DNA of 64,000 nt from Salinirubellus salinus (GTDB lineage Archaea; Halobacteriota; Halobacteria; Halobacteriales; Haloarculaceae). Each line of letters opens with the position of its first letter. Position 1 is the first letter of the stretch. A program made the translations under genes and the position numbers. Shown here one piece after another: positions 9,160 to 21,837 of this stretch. The notes beneath the pieces were generated by a model that saw nothing but the letters and a program-made list of their open reading frames with translations, did not search any database and was not told the origin of the DNA. The stretch spans positions 1,736,001 through 1,800,000 of the forward strand of contig NZ_CP104003.1 of NCBI RefSeq assembly GCF_025231485.1. Direction: 5' to 3'.

Positions 9160-9237
<78 letters not shown>

Positions 9238-9310: not shown

Positions 9311-10054
9311 TCAGTCAGTGTTACTGAATAGTTCATCGTCGCCACAATTCTCCACCACGTAATGACAGGGTCGACAGAGTGTGACGAGATTATCGAGTAA
9401 GTGCGCGTCGACAGGATACTCGAACGTCCGAACAGGGGTGATGTGGTGAACTTCGAGCGGCTGTTCTGCATCTTCAGCGGCGATACCACACCGTTGACAA
9501 GTGTGGTCGTCACGCTCGAGAGCGGCCCGGCGCGCCGCGATCCAGCCGGTCGTGTAGTACTCTGACGGGGCGACCTTCGAGCTGTGACGGCGTTTGTGGT
9601 CCTCGACGAGCCAGTTGTCGTAGCACTCACGATCGCAGTAGACCCGCTGCTGCCCCTCCGCCTTCGAGCGGTAAACCGCTAATTTCGCACCACAGAATGT
9701 ACAGTCCACCGTCCGTTTTCCCGATTCGTCCCGCCGCCGCGGCCTACACGTCACCGACGGGTCGGCCACGCACGTCGGACAGTAGAGACCGGACTTCTCG
9801 GAGGGGTAGTAGAGAAACGTCGCCCCGCACTCGATGCACTCGGTCTCGGTGTTGCCACGGTTCCAGTCGGCCACGCCGCCCGTGTCGTAGCAGTCGGCGC
9901 AGTAGACGCGTGCCGAATCGGGGTCGTAGAACGGCATCTCGCACGTCGCACAGGTGCAGTTCGCGAGCGGTTCGTCGTGGACTTTGGTGTGGTGCTGGCG
10001 CATCCCGGCGAGAGTCTCGAACGTCCGGTCACAGCTCGGGCAGGGGTGAGTCAT
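9311..10054 (-). CDS. HNH endonuclease with several zinc fingers
   Basis: 247 residues. The N-terminus has a C2H2 finger (CPSCDRTFETLAGMRQHH, about 4-25). Three further CxxC pairs follow: CATCEMPF with CADC, CIECGATF with CPTC, and CTFCGAKL with CDREC. The C-terminal HNH nuclease core is CQRCGI ... LEVHHITPV ... LDNLVTLCRPCH (about 180-235) with its two CxxC zinc ligands. Such proteins bind and cut DNA; in haloarchaea they are often linked to mobile DNA, though many are single conserved genes. Its place 76 bases from a tRNA, with local A/T enrichment and a gene desert upstream, fits a mobile or integrated origin. A TATA-like CGTTTATGA lies 32-40 bases before the ATG. Confidence 0.85.
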   Translation of the reverse strand: MTHPCPSCDRTFETLAGMRQHHTKVHDEPLANCTCATCEMPFYDPDSARVYCADCYDTGGVADWNRGNTETECIECGATFLYYPSEKSGLYCPTCVADPSVTCRPRRRDESGKRTVDCTFCGAKLAVYRSKAEGQQRVYCDRECYDNWLVEDHKRRHSSKVAPSEYYTTGWIAARRAALERDDHTCQRCGIAAEDAEQPLEVHHITPVRTFEYPVDAHLLDNLVTLCRPCHYVVENCGDDELFSNTD

Positions 10055-11671
10055 CGGTATCGACCCCGGGTGGTCTCGCTATCGCTCATAAACGTGTGCG
10101 TCGTGAGCGGGGACGGGTGCGCTCGGAGCGGGGTGGTCGGGGAGGCGAGTCGCCGACTGCGGTATCGCTGGTGAGAGACCCGAGTTCGCCCAGTTTCTGG
10201 TGGGGCGTTACGTGCTCGAGCCCCAGACGTCGAGAGGGGTAGTTGCTGATCGTGGCTGACTGGTGTGTTCGGGTACGTCATACTCGACTGGCGGGGGGCA
10301 CGCTATCGCATGCGCCCCACACCGCCTCGGGGCGGATAGACCGGGGGTCGAAGTCGCCAACGCGAACCGTGCGGCTTCGTCGGGGACCCGGAGTCAGCGA
10401 AGAGCGTCGCCGAGGCGACCGGTCGACGTGCGAGTACGTTGCCTGAGCAGCGCGCTACCGTCGAGGGAACGGTGTTCACGAACGAGGTCGGCTTCAGGTG
10501 GAACTCGACTGTGCAGGGGTCACCGATCGAGCACGACGAGCCGCCGGACGGACGGCGAGTTCGGGGGGCGTACCAACCCGAGCGCGCCCCGAAGCCGTGG
10601 AGGGTCGACACTCGGCGTGGGGCACGGAGGGCGTCCGAGCGCTCCAATCACTCCCGCTCGAGGCACCGTTCGGCCGGACATCCGGCGGACACGCCCGGAA
10701 AAACGGTCCTGATGGACGAATCCGAGTGTCCGGTCGGGCTACCCTCTGGCTGGATGGAGTGGAACGAACGGGTCGAGGTGACACGATGGGCGATACTCAG
10801 ACATCCAGATTCCTGCCTGAGGAACCCGATAGCGACGTGGTTCGACGAGTTCCGAGTCAGTCGTCGAGCGTCGTGTCACCGCTCGTCGAGCGGACCACCA
10901 GTTCCCTGCTGTCGATGGGCAGTTCTCGGACGCGCTTGCCCGGGGGTTCGGGTCGAGTGTCCGGAGGTGAGACGCACCCAGAGCGGCCAAGACGGTTCAC
11001 ACGGGTCGCTGGAGCCGTATCGTCATCTGTTCGAGGAGGTGTCCGGACACTCAGCCAGAACGGCTCTCGCGGCCGTGTCCGCGGGTTTCGAGCTGATCCG
11101 GCGTAGAACGGCGGACACTCGGATACTCGGGACGTCTGTTTATGCACCGAGGTACGTTCTGAGTGTCCGACCTGTTCGTAGAGGTGATAGTATGGTACCC
11201 CGTACGGTTCGGCACTGAGGCCGGGGTCGTCGTGACTGGCCACGGTGCGATGGGCTCCAGTCGAATCGATGGTCACCGATCGTGATCAGGTCACTAGACA
11301 CTCGTCACCGAGCGGGGCGGCCCGCCGCGGCGTCAGGTTCGGTCGTCGGTCGCTCGGAGGGCCGCGGGCGCACCCACGCGAAGCGACAGCTGTTCCGTGG
11401 CGTGCCCGGGGCTGGGGCTACCGATACGCTCCACGAGGCACGGGTCGGGGGCGACGACTGGCTTGTCAGTGGACGCCTCGGACGGGCGGGGCCTGCGAGG
11501 CTGGCGTGGCGCCGTTCGGCCACGGCCGTGTGGTGTCTCCTCGACCTCGTGGGGGCCGGGTGCGTGAGTCCGGTACCTCGGTGTGGTCCAGTTTGGCGAC
11601 CACTCGCCGTGGTCCCGCACGCGCGGCGTCACGACCCGAACCTCATCGACGATCGATGGGGGAAGGTGCAG
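10055..11671. other. 1.6 kb without a convincing gene, beside tRNA-Glu / HNH
   Basis: Several open frames run through here on both strands, but their products are basic, rich in Ser/Arg/Pro and lack the acidic bias and third-position GC pattern of the real genes on either side. No frame gives a recognisable domain. The stretch holds five exact copies of a 9-mer (see separate entry), a TATA-like GTTTATGC at 11138-11145, and an 8-codon ORF at 11192-11218. It may be a decayed island, a regulatory region, or DNA coding for RNA. I see no RNase P or SRP RNA signatures. Confidence 0.55.
10724..11169. repeat. Cluster of GAGTGTCCG / CGGACACTC 9-mers
   Basis: Exact copies occur at 10724-10732 (+), 10955-10963 (+), 11044-11052 (-), 11112-11120 (-) and 11161-11169 (+). 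The third sits inside a perfect 12-base palindrome GTGTCCGGACAC (11039-11050). Near matches with the CGACACTCG or CGGACA core lie at 10606, 10675, 10685, 11074 and 11297. Five copies in under 450 bases is far above chance for a 9-mer. Spacing is irregular, so this is not a tandem repeat or CRISPR; it resembles a set of binding sites. Confidence 0.65.
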
Positions 11672-12562
11672 TCAGGAGCGCTCCACGTCGCTCGCCGGGG
11701 GGTTCGACCCGTACAGCGCGGGGACCCAGTTCTGGCTGTCGATGGCCGGGCGCTCGTAGTTCGGGTCCGTCTGCCGCTCGGGGAGCTGGGTCGGCTCGGG
11801 CATGGTGTCTTCGTAGTCGATCTGTGAGAGGAGGTGACTGATGCAGTTGAGCCGGGCGTGTTTCTTCACGTCGGCGTTGATGACGTACCACGGCGAGTCC
11901 GCCGTGTCTGTGTGGGTGAACATCGCGTCCTTCGCGCGGGAGTACTCGACCCAGCGTTCCCGGGCCTCGAGGTCGATCGGACTGAGTTTCCAGCGTCGTT
12001 TCGGGTCGTTGCTCCGCTTCTGGAAGCGTCGCTCCTGTTCCTCGTCGCTGATGGAGAACCAGTACTTGAGGAGGATGATCCCCGAGCGCTGCAACATCCG
12101 CTCGAACTCGGGGGCACTCCGGAGGAACTCCCGGTACTCATCGTCGGTGCAGAAGTCCATCACCCGTTCGACGGTGGCGCGGTTGTACCACGAGCGGTCG
12201 AACAGGACCATCTCGCCTGCGGCGGGGAGGTGCTCGACGTAGCGCTGGAAGTACCACTGGGTCTGCTCGCGTTCGGTGGGCTTGTCGAGCGCGACGACCT
12301 TCACCACCCGCGAGCTCGTCCGACGGGTGATGCGGTGGATCGTCCCACCCTTGCCGGCCGCGTCTCGGCCGTCGAAACACACGACGACGCGGAGGCCCTG
12401 CTCTCTGACCCACATCTGGAGTCTGACGAGCTCCTCCTGCAGCCGCTCGAGTTCGCGCTTGTAGTACTTCTTCTTGATCTTGCCACTGTCCTTGTAGAGG
12501 TCGTCCTCGTCGGCGGTGTGCAACACGGACTCCTCGGCCGGCAATACGGGGTGTTCGGTCAT
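11672..12562 (-). CDS. ppk2: Polyphosphate kinase 2 family protein
   Basis: 296 residues, a single PPK2 domain of normal length. The P-loop-like FDGRDAAGKGGTIHRI lies near residues 59-74, followed by the conserved FDRSWYNRATVE (about 120-131), which contributes the lid and polyphosphate contacts, and KYWFSISDEEQERRF. PPK2 enzymes transfer phosphate between polyphosphate and nucleoside di- or monophosphates, usually making GTP or ATP from polyphosphate. I set the start at ATG 12562 (MTEHPVLPAE) because upstream residues are not acidic. The gene stands alone; the CHAD and CYTH-like genes at 3.7-5.4 kb are possible functional partners. Confidence 0.92.
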   Translation of the reverse strand: MTEHPVLPAEESVLHTADEDDLYKDSGKIKKKYYKRELERLQEELVRLQMWVREQGLRVVVCFDGRDAAGKGGTIHRITRRTSSRVVKVVALDKPTEREQTQWYFQRYVEHLPAAGEMVLFDRSWYNRATVERVMDFCTDDEYREFLRSAPEFERMLQRSGIILLKYWFSISDEEQERRFQKRSNDPKRRWKLSPIDLEARERWVEYSRAKDAMFTHTDTADSPWYVINADVKKHARLNCISHLLSQIDYEDTMPEPTQLPERQTDPNYERPAIDSQNWVPALYGSNPPASDVERS

Positions 12563-13011
12563 CGACCTCGCCTCGCGTGGGTACGGCGAGGCCGCATCGA
12601 GCCATCCATAGCGCGTGGTCAGTGGGCAGGGTAGATAACCGTCACCTCGCAGTGAAGCTCGATTTCGCGGGGGAACTCCGTGAACCGGTCGCCGCTCACG
12701 TCGACAGCGACCGCAGCCGTCGGCACCGGTGGCGCCACGGACGAACGGCACCGTGCTGGTCGGCTGTGAGGTGCGTACTGTCTCGTGGGAGCCGCTCGGA
12801 CCGGGTCGGCGGCCGCATAGAGGAGACGGGCCACCCCTCCGGTACACCCGTGACGGTCTCCTCGGCGGTCACGGTCCGCAGAGGGTCGATTCACCATCGA
12901 AATGCGACGCAGAGCCCGGTACTCGCGTCGTGGTGGAACTCACACGTACGACGGCGTGAGCACCCACTCGCGTGACCGCGAGTGCCACGAGCCGTGTGAG
13001 CCTTCGGCCAC
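12563..13011. other. 449 bases between ppk2 and the transducer gene
   Basis: No credible ORF. The only structure found is an 8-base-pair inverted repeat near the end of the transducer gene (separate entry) and a CCTCGCC/GGCGAGG pair (about 12566-12592) in the ppk2 upstream region. The rest is unremarkable. Confidence 0.5.
12965..12984 (-). terminator. Perfect hairpin after the transducer gene
   Basis: CACTCGCG and CGCGAGTG flank the loop TGAC, a perfect 8-base-pair stem. It starts 28 bases beyond the transducer stop codon on the minus strand and could protect or end that mRNA. No T-run follows, so a terminator role is only suggested. Confidence 0.35.
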
Positions 13012-20927: not shown

Positions 20928-21078
20928 CAGGTCCGGTCGGTGAGAGGTCGAGACCAGCGCGAGATTCCCAACGCGTATCACGGAGGTTCTCGGGATTCTC
21001 CGGGCGCATGACCGTGGTGTGCCATAGCGTGTCAAAACGGCGAAAGAACTAATGTGTCACCCTCGATAGCGAAAGGTA

Positions 21079-21096
21079 CGCTCGTTCACACGAGCG
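21079..21096 (+). promoter_or_regulatory. Hairpin in front of the 40-codon ORF
   Basis: CGCTCGT and ACGAGCG enclose loop TCAC, a perfect 7-base-pair stem. GGTGA follows directly (21096-21100) and ATG comes at 21107. The stem touches the ribosome-binding-like site, so it could control translation. Confidence 0.4.
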
Positions 21097-21106
21097 GTGA
21101 CCCACC

Positions 21107-21229
21107 ATGACCGCACTCCCGAACCCGATGGCCGCTGTGTCCTACAGCGGTGCGTCCACCATCCAGAAGTGGGCGTTCGGGCCGGAGTGCGTTGATGGGA
21201 CTCACCTTCGCACCCGGCCCGCCGCGTAA
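21107..21229 (+). CDS. Possible 40-residue small protein
   Basis: A short ORF begins MTALPNPMAAVSYSG and ends TRPAA. Support comes from position: a GGTGA element 6 bases upstream, a hairpin before it and a strong hairpin 35 bases after its stop. Against it: the composition is only weakly haloarchaeal (few Asp/Glu), and I recognise no family. The region could instead code for a structured RNA. Treat as tentative. Confidence 0.3.
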   Translation: MTALPNPMAAVSYSGASTIQKWAFGPECVDGTHLRTRPAA

Positions 21230-21264
21230 CGCTCGTCACGCGACGGACCGGGGTTCTCTACCCA

Positions 21265-21300
21265 CCCCGGAGCGTCAGGCTTCGACCGCCCGCTCCGGGG
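21265..21300 (+). terminator. Strong 10-base-pair hairpin
   Basis: CCCCGGAGCG (21265-21274) and CGCTCCGGGG (21291-21300) are perfect reverse complements with a 16-base loop. A second overlapping pairing, CCGGGG (21248-21253) with CCCCGG (21265-21270), competes for the same bases. The two alternatives could switch, or one could end the upstream small transcript. Confidence 0.45.
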
Positions 21301-21552
21301 GGTGTGTTCCCCATTCCTCGCGTCGAGCTACGTGGCACCGGCCGGTGTGCCGCCCGCCCCGTGTCGTCCGCGTGGCGTCCCCGACGCCACGGTCACGGTC
21401 GTCGACTTCGCCGGCGACCGACGGCACGTGAACAGCCCTCGCCAGCCCCCTCCCGGACAGCGGCGGCGCTGTCCGCCAGGCGACCACACCGCTCCCCGCG
21501 GTTCCAGACGAACCGCACGGCCCACGGCGCGTTCGACTCGCGCAGGGAGCCT

Positions 21553-21837
21553 ATGTCAGTCCAGCGAACCCCGCAACGGGTCCGAGCGGAAGTCGAGCTG
21601 CGCGTCCCCCGCGGTGCGATGGGTGACCTCGAGCAGGGCGTCCACGACGTCCTCTCGAAGGTCGACGCCGTCGGCTGCGTCGAGCGAGCCGAGGTCCGGG
21701 ACGTCCGGCCCACCTCGTTCGACATCCACGTCACCGTCGCGGCGGCCCTCGAAGTCAGGGCCGAGCGCGCGGACGTGCGCGAGACGCTGCTCGACGGCTT
21801 CGGCATCGAACGACTCGAACACGTCGAGTACGGTTGA
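21553..21837 (+). CDS. Conserved small haloarchaeal protein, 94 aa
   Basis: Starts MSVQRTPQRVRAEVELRVP. It has an alternating beta-alpha-beta pattern: VRAEVELRVP, a helix GDLEQGVHDVLSKVD, VERAEVRDVRPTSFDIHVTV, then a helix and LEHVEYG. This looks like a ferredoxin-like fold domain, as in small regulatory or dimer domains. I believe similar small proteins occur in many haloarchaea, but no function is known to me. The start is chosen by protein pattern; upstream codons in the same frame are not credible. The gene downstream at 21932 codes for a membrane peptide. Confidence 0.65.
   Translation: MSVQRTPQRVRAEVELRVPRGAMGDLEQGVHDVLSKVDAVGCVERAEVRDVRPTSFDIHVTVAAALEVRAERADVRETLLDGFGIERLEHVEYG

Follow-up and report, generated by a model that had tools for sequence, protein, structure and literature searches.

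We found that five exact copies of the nine-base word GAGTGTCCG are packed into 446 bases (10724-11169) of a non-coding gap between an HNH endonuclease gene and a polyphosphate kinase 2 (PPK2) gene of Salinirubellus salinus, and that this is the sole cluster of the word in the genome. Tentatively, and with confidence somewhat short of even, we read the cluster as a lineage-specific multi-site array for one predicted sequence-specific DNA-binding protein, lying on DNA that was probably acquired; for now, the feature is well defined and specific to the lineage, yet uninterpreted. The window, i.e., the whole 64-kb stretch of DNA that was analyzed, holds no further copy of the word, and the five copies, the 12-base palindrome GTGTCCGGACAC, and the near matches described in the initial annotation were all recovered, the near matches being three GTGTCCG cores and the one-mismatch copy GAGTATCCG [Table 1]. 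GTGTCCG is common to the cores and the full GAGTGTCCG is present in five of them, while the flanks are little alike; because the core is constant and the flanks differ, the copies are better read as candidate binding sites than as products of a recent duplication. The sites occur in both orientations and their spacing is irregular.

Table 1. Positions in the window of the repeat cluster, its potential hairpins, and the neighboring genes.
Feature	Position	Strand	Remarks
tRNA-Glu (CTC)	9160..9235	+	borders lower-GC stretch
HNH endonuclease gene	9311..10054	-	downstream of gap; Pfam HNH 3.5e-9; GC3 0.75
Gap without coding signal	10055..11671	.	1617 bases; holds cluster
Potential hairpin 1	10668..10739	+	14-pair closing stem including G-U pairs, inner branches; copy 1 in right arm
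GTGTCCG core	10686..10692	-	without GA
GAGTGTCCG copy 1	10724..10732	+	extended form ATCCGAGTGTCCG at 10720-10732; 13-base inverted match to 11112-11124
Potential hairpin 2	10946..11061	.	copies 2 and 3 in arms, 20 nt, 85% complementary
GAGTGTCCG copy 2	10955..10963	+	exact match
GTGTCCG core	11039..11045	+	left half of 12-base palindrome
Palindrome GTGTCCGGACAC	11039-11050		12 bases
GAGTGTCCG copy 3	11044..11052	-	overlaps right half of palindrome GTGTCCGGACAC
GTGTCCG core	11075..11081	+	without GA
Potential hairpin 3	11110..11172	.	copies 4 and 5 in arms
GAGTGTCCG copy 4	11112..11120	-	adjoins one-mismatch copy GAGTATCCG; period-8 tandem unit
GAGTATCCG	11120-11128	-	one-mismatch copy of GAGTGTCCG
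GAGTGTCCG copy 5	11161..11169	+	exact match
PPK2 gene	11672..12565	-	3' end borders gap; PF03976 1.7e-103

The initial annotation had estimated that about 0.5 copies would be expected per 64 kb, a figure which assumes equal base frequencies; dinucleotide shuffles of the window (70.7% GC) give 2.65. Because five or more copies were reached in 16 of 100 such shuffles, the total of five is unremarkable and the clustering is the remarkable part. The two contigs of the genome (4,376,714 bases, 4.38 Mb) contain 60 copies of the word, a density of about 0.9 per 64 kb, and no other pair of these copies lies within 446 bases; this contradicts the alternative raised in the initial annotation, a word found throughout the genome as densely as here. 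These genome-wide statements are based on pattern searches and a 400-kb sample. A Poisson estimate from the 55 other copies predicts about 2e-9 clusters for GAGTGTCCG, and about 3e-4 when all 131,000 words are assumed to be as common as GAGTGTCCG. In 1000 dinucleotide-shuffled versions of the gap, the top count of any 9-mer in 446 bases was four in one version and never five, and the 7-mer core is equally extreme, with 7 non-overlapping copies against at most 6 in 1000 gap shuffles. In 464 kb of real sequence, we detected 14 further 9-mer clusters at a handful of places, all of them runs of a single word whose copies are a multiple of three bases apart, a pattern seen in repetitive coding DNA; the GAGTGTCCG cluster, in contrast, is not three-spaced, has both orientations, and consists of a rare word. 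Compared with other intergenic DNA of the same genome, the gap contains 8 GTGTCCG against 0.41 expected and 7 GAGTGTC against 0.46. General intergenic enrichment of the word was rejected as a cause, since other gaps of more than 500 bases hold at most one GTGTCCG. The clustering of one short word in this non-coding DNA is non-random, as it would be in a multi-site array.

A coding explanation of the cluster was also rejected. Codon scores (trained on genes of the same window) stay below zero in all six frames of the gap, compared with +0.4 to +0.9 for the neighboring PPK2 frame; none of the ORFs that overlap the cluster shows the haloarchaeal GC3 pattern, and a Pfam search of the gap returned nothing above the cut-off, with no transposase or integrase. 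Elsewhere in the genome, 15 of the 25 other GAGTGTCCG copies that were examined sit in ORFs with a coding GC pattern (probable genes), and some of the coding copies would read Glu-Cys-Pro in frame, as in zinc-binding motifs. The N-terminus of the HNH protein has a weak, sub-threshold similarity to C2H2 fingers. Homologues of this protein in other haloarchaea are preceded by short gaps of 59-219 bases, in which no 8- or 9-mer recurs; for this reason we do not propose the HNH protein as the binder, and the cluster was rejected as a conserved partner of the HNH gene. It was likewise rejected as a conserved partner of PPK2, whose relatives in two family genomes lack the cluster, the next open frame downstream being 33 or 325 bases away. 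PPK2 is present in 3 of 116 family genomes including S. salinus, i.e., only 2 of the other 115 have any match. The PPK2 frame beside the gap is open to 12847, and 12565 is a provisional start. The genome carries two PPK2 genes, at 11672-12565 of the window and at G000:C1 2386090-2386926, which are 67% identical.

After the 3' end of tRNA-Glu, the GC content falls to 47-68% up to about position 10,500, and the HNH gene has a GC3 well below the ~0.9 of its neighbors. The segment 9236-10054 (47-65% GC), which holds this gene of atypical composition, is likely acquired DNA with no visible att duplication, and the composition, the scarcity of PPK2, and the absence of convincing relatives suggest that the gap and the HNH region together were acquired beside tRNA-Glu. 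We only infer integration at the tRNA gene, because no duplication of its 3' end was found in the window, even with mismatches allowed. For the gap DNA, searches of 38 relatives, 391 other genomes of the order, plasmids, and phages gave no convincing counterpart; in this comparison the genus is represented by one genome, that of S. salinus itself. The DNA matches in relatives are weak (about 22-89 nt, E 1e-5 to 1e-3 per genome), and we treated them as chance, many falling in the same GTCGAGCG-rich stretch. Within its own genome the region matches only itself. Since no conservation in relatives was found, the comparison gives no evidence of selection on the array. Of 392 genomes of the order, that of S. 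salinus alone has an exact inverted pair of GAGTGTCCG in the orientation of copies 4 and 5 at a distance of 20-50 bases; in viral contigs, inverted 9-mer pairs were set aside as ten scattered stretches of 37-69% GC in contexts unlike the window. A genome search for GAGTGTCCG followed by its complement within 0-30 bases found nothing, and the literature that was searched held nothing relevant on either the 9-mer or the palindrome. Another region of the genome (L083, G000:C1 2100001-2120000) includes several kilobases in which the GC content is 43-58% and coding-like ORFs are few, and is probably an acquired island.

A second region with the same words adjoins a TnpB-like gene, which was identified from sequence and not from a family search. 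In this locus (L029, G000:C1 1828661-1831669), a 738-base intergenic gap (1468-2205 of the locus, about 1,830,128-1,830,865) contains 4 GTGTCCG against 0.2 expected and 4 GAGTGT, and is also enriched in ATCCGAG words. Its inverted pair GGGACACTC / GAGTGTTCG consists of one-mismatch sites and resembles copies 4 and 5 of the window. Because the locus was found through its one exact GAGTGTCCG copy, the enrichment is no more than suggestive; it would fit a binder shared with the window cluster.

In the array that we tentatively favor, a putative protein would recognize the core GTGTCCG, usually within GAGTGTCCG, and the single sites and inverted pairs, including the palindrome GTGTCCGGACAC, would be occupied together, conceivably in a cooperative manner, such that a nucleoprotein complex could assemble on the non-coding DNA. 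The array DNA probably arrived with the HNH-gene region next to tRNA-Glu, and its candidate purposes are control of a local transcript or service as an element's end, resolution, or partition site. We favor this reading because the cluster is the only one in the genome, because GTGTCCG and GAGTGTC are in excess, and because no gap shuffle reproduces it. The absence of a coding explanation, which sets the cluster apart from the three-spaced clusters and from 15 of the 25 other copies, and the possibility of a binder shared with the TnpB-side region argue in the same direction. The lack of conservation seen in relatives, the irregular spacing, the distance of the sites from the HNH start, and the lack of upstream repeats in the HNH homologues speak against it. 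Archaeal regulators usually act close to the start, and the exact copies, at least 670 bases upstream of the HNH start, are far from that. If the cluster is protein-bound, it is a defined multi-site haloarchaeal target with a simple testable core, and a route to its binder, which may itself be part of acquired DNA.

The initial annotation had offered either a binding region or the remains of a repeated element, a view that is partly supported, with evidence on both sides and none that is decisive. We consider it somewhat unlikely that a mobile or repeated element decayed beside the tRNA gene and left the copies as remnants with no present function. Such an element would leave short inverted and direct duplications from its ends or from past rearrangements, and the region does contain a perfect 13-base inverted pair (10720-10732 and 11112-11124) and, around some copies, longer imperfect duplications, one of 27 nt (70%) and one of 20 nt (85%). 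The drop in GC that begins at the 3' end of tRNA-Glu, the atypical GC3 of the HNH gene, the scarcity of PPK2 in the family, and the lack of a convincing relative elsewhere are further points in its favor, which have to be set against a gap without transposase or integrase, the missing second genomic copy, the missing duplicate of the tRNA end in the window, and the absence of a target-site duplication around the 13-base pair (judged by eye). Neutral decay does not predict that a 9-mer stays exact five times despite diverged flanks. If the copies are debris, they show only that a short word can mimic a regulatory array by descent.

Folding raises the possibility of a structured non-coding RNA, transcribed from the + strand over 10668-11172 and with the repeated sequence in its stems, which we regard as improbable. 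The fold of the 521-nt region is more stable than that of its shuffles (z -2.9 on the + strand and -2.4 on the - strand) and ranks second on the + strand against 25 intergenic stretches outside the gap. The three potential hairpins, which were picked after the fold was seen, have z values on the + and - strands of -3.96 and -1.85 (hairpin 1, -40 kcal/mol), -3.61 and -3.32 (hairpin 2), and -4.70 and -3.88 (hairpin 3), and the G-U pairs of hairpin 1 and its much weaker - strand fold count in favor of an RNA. When only the sequence outside the motif copies is shuffled, however, z falls to -1.7 on the + strand, where 7 of 160 shuffles fold equally well, and to -0.5 on the - strand, where 51 of 160 do; because most of the excess stability disappears, the repeats are the main signal, and the leftover + strand signal is weak. 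Rfam covariance models gave no match over the cluster, no homologue was found, and the region is not filed under a known RNA family. A roughly 500-nt lineage-specific RNA, or a DNA element of protein-bound hairpins, with GAGTGTCCG stems, acquisition together with HNH, and a weaker counterpart on the TnpB side, is in our estimate quite improbable. It is very improbable that copies 4 and 5 form an operator pair which flanks the TATA-like TTTATG at 11139-11144 and controls a short transcript toward higher coordinates: site 4 ends 18 bases before TTTATG, site 5 begins 16 bases after it, and 34 bases upstream of the HNH start there is a comparable TTTATG (- strand, 10088-10093), but no coding frame follows, a single six-base match is weak evidence, and copies 1 to 3 are left unexplained. 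Coincidence among many possible words, for which about 131,000 canonical 9-mers were open to choice, is the least probable reading. Order-4 Markov versions of the full window were a harsher control than the shuffles, and one in 60 of them contained such a cluster, whatever the word; nevertheless, it is mainly common words that should cluster by chance, whereas GAGTGTCCG is rare, and neither the cluster nor its 7-mer core was matched in the 1000 gap shuffles.

Iterons, centromere-like parS/SegB regions, and multi-site operators are multi-site arrays for DNA-binding proteins. The cluster resembles them in that a short non- or half-palindromic word is repeated in both orientations over a few hundred non-coding bases, and differs in its irregular spacing and in that no adjoining partition, rep, or regulator gene was identified. 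With haloarchaeal ORB origins it shares intergenic repeats with inverted pairs; no Orc1/Cdc6 domain occurs among the proteins scanned in the first 32 kb of the window and no rep gene was recognized nearby, and we did not file the cluster as an ORB-type origin, from which it is set apart by the missing orc1/cdc6; according to the initial annotation, its repeat also differs from known ORB repeats. REP elements are dispersed at many loci. The intergenic location, inverted arrangement, and hairpin potential of the cluster are reminiscent of REP/BIME elements, from which it differs in occupying one locus, with weak similarity to just one other region; being single copy, with only a self-match in its own genome, it was not assigned to a REP/MITE family. 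The 58- and 29-base intergenic repeats of halovirus HF2 are reported to carry AT-rich promoter motifs, and are another case of short repeats in haloarchaeal non-coding DNA, proposed there to act in expression (PMC8707807). Those repeats lie in viral intergenic regions, whereas a GC-rich 9-base word is found here at one chromosomal locus.

Elsewhere in the window, a 626-base gap (20930-21555, + strand) that separates an FMN-dependent dehydrogenase gene from the predicted gene after it gave the strongest fold of the gaps tested, with z -5.1 on the + strand for 20930-21555 and, for 20940-21460, -5.5 and -3.8 on the two strands. This gap has no Rfam match, its matches in family genomes are short and weak and fall mostly in the last third, and it is a possible candidate for a novel structured RNA. 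The segment 58387-58458 (- strand) matches the C/D-box guide RNA sR-tMet (Rfam RF02163) with 79 bits.
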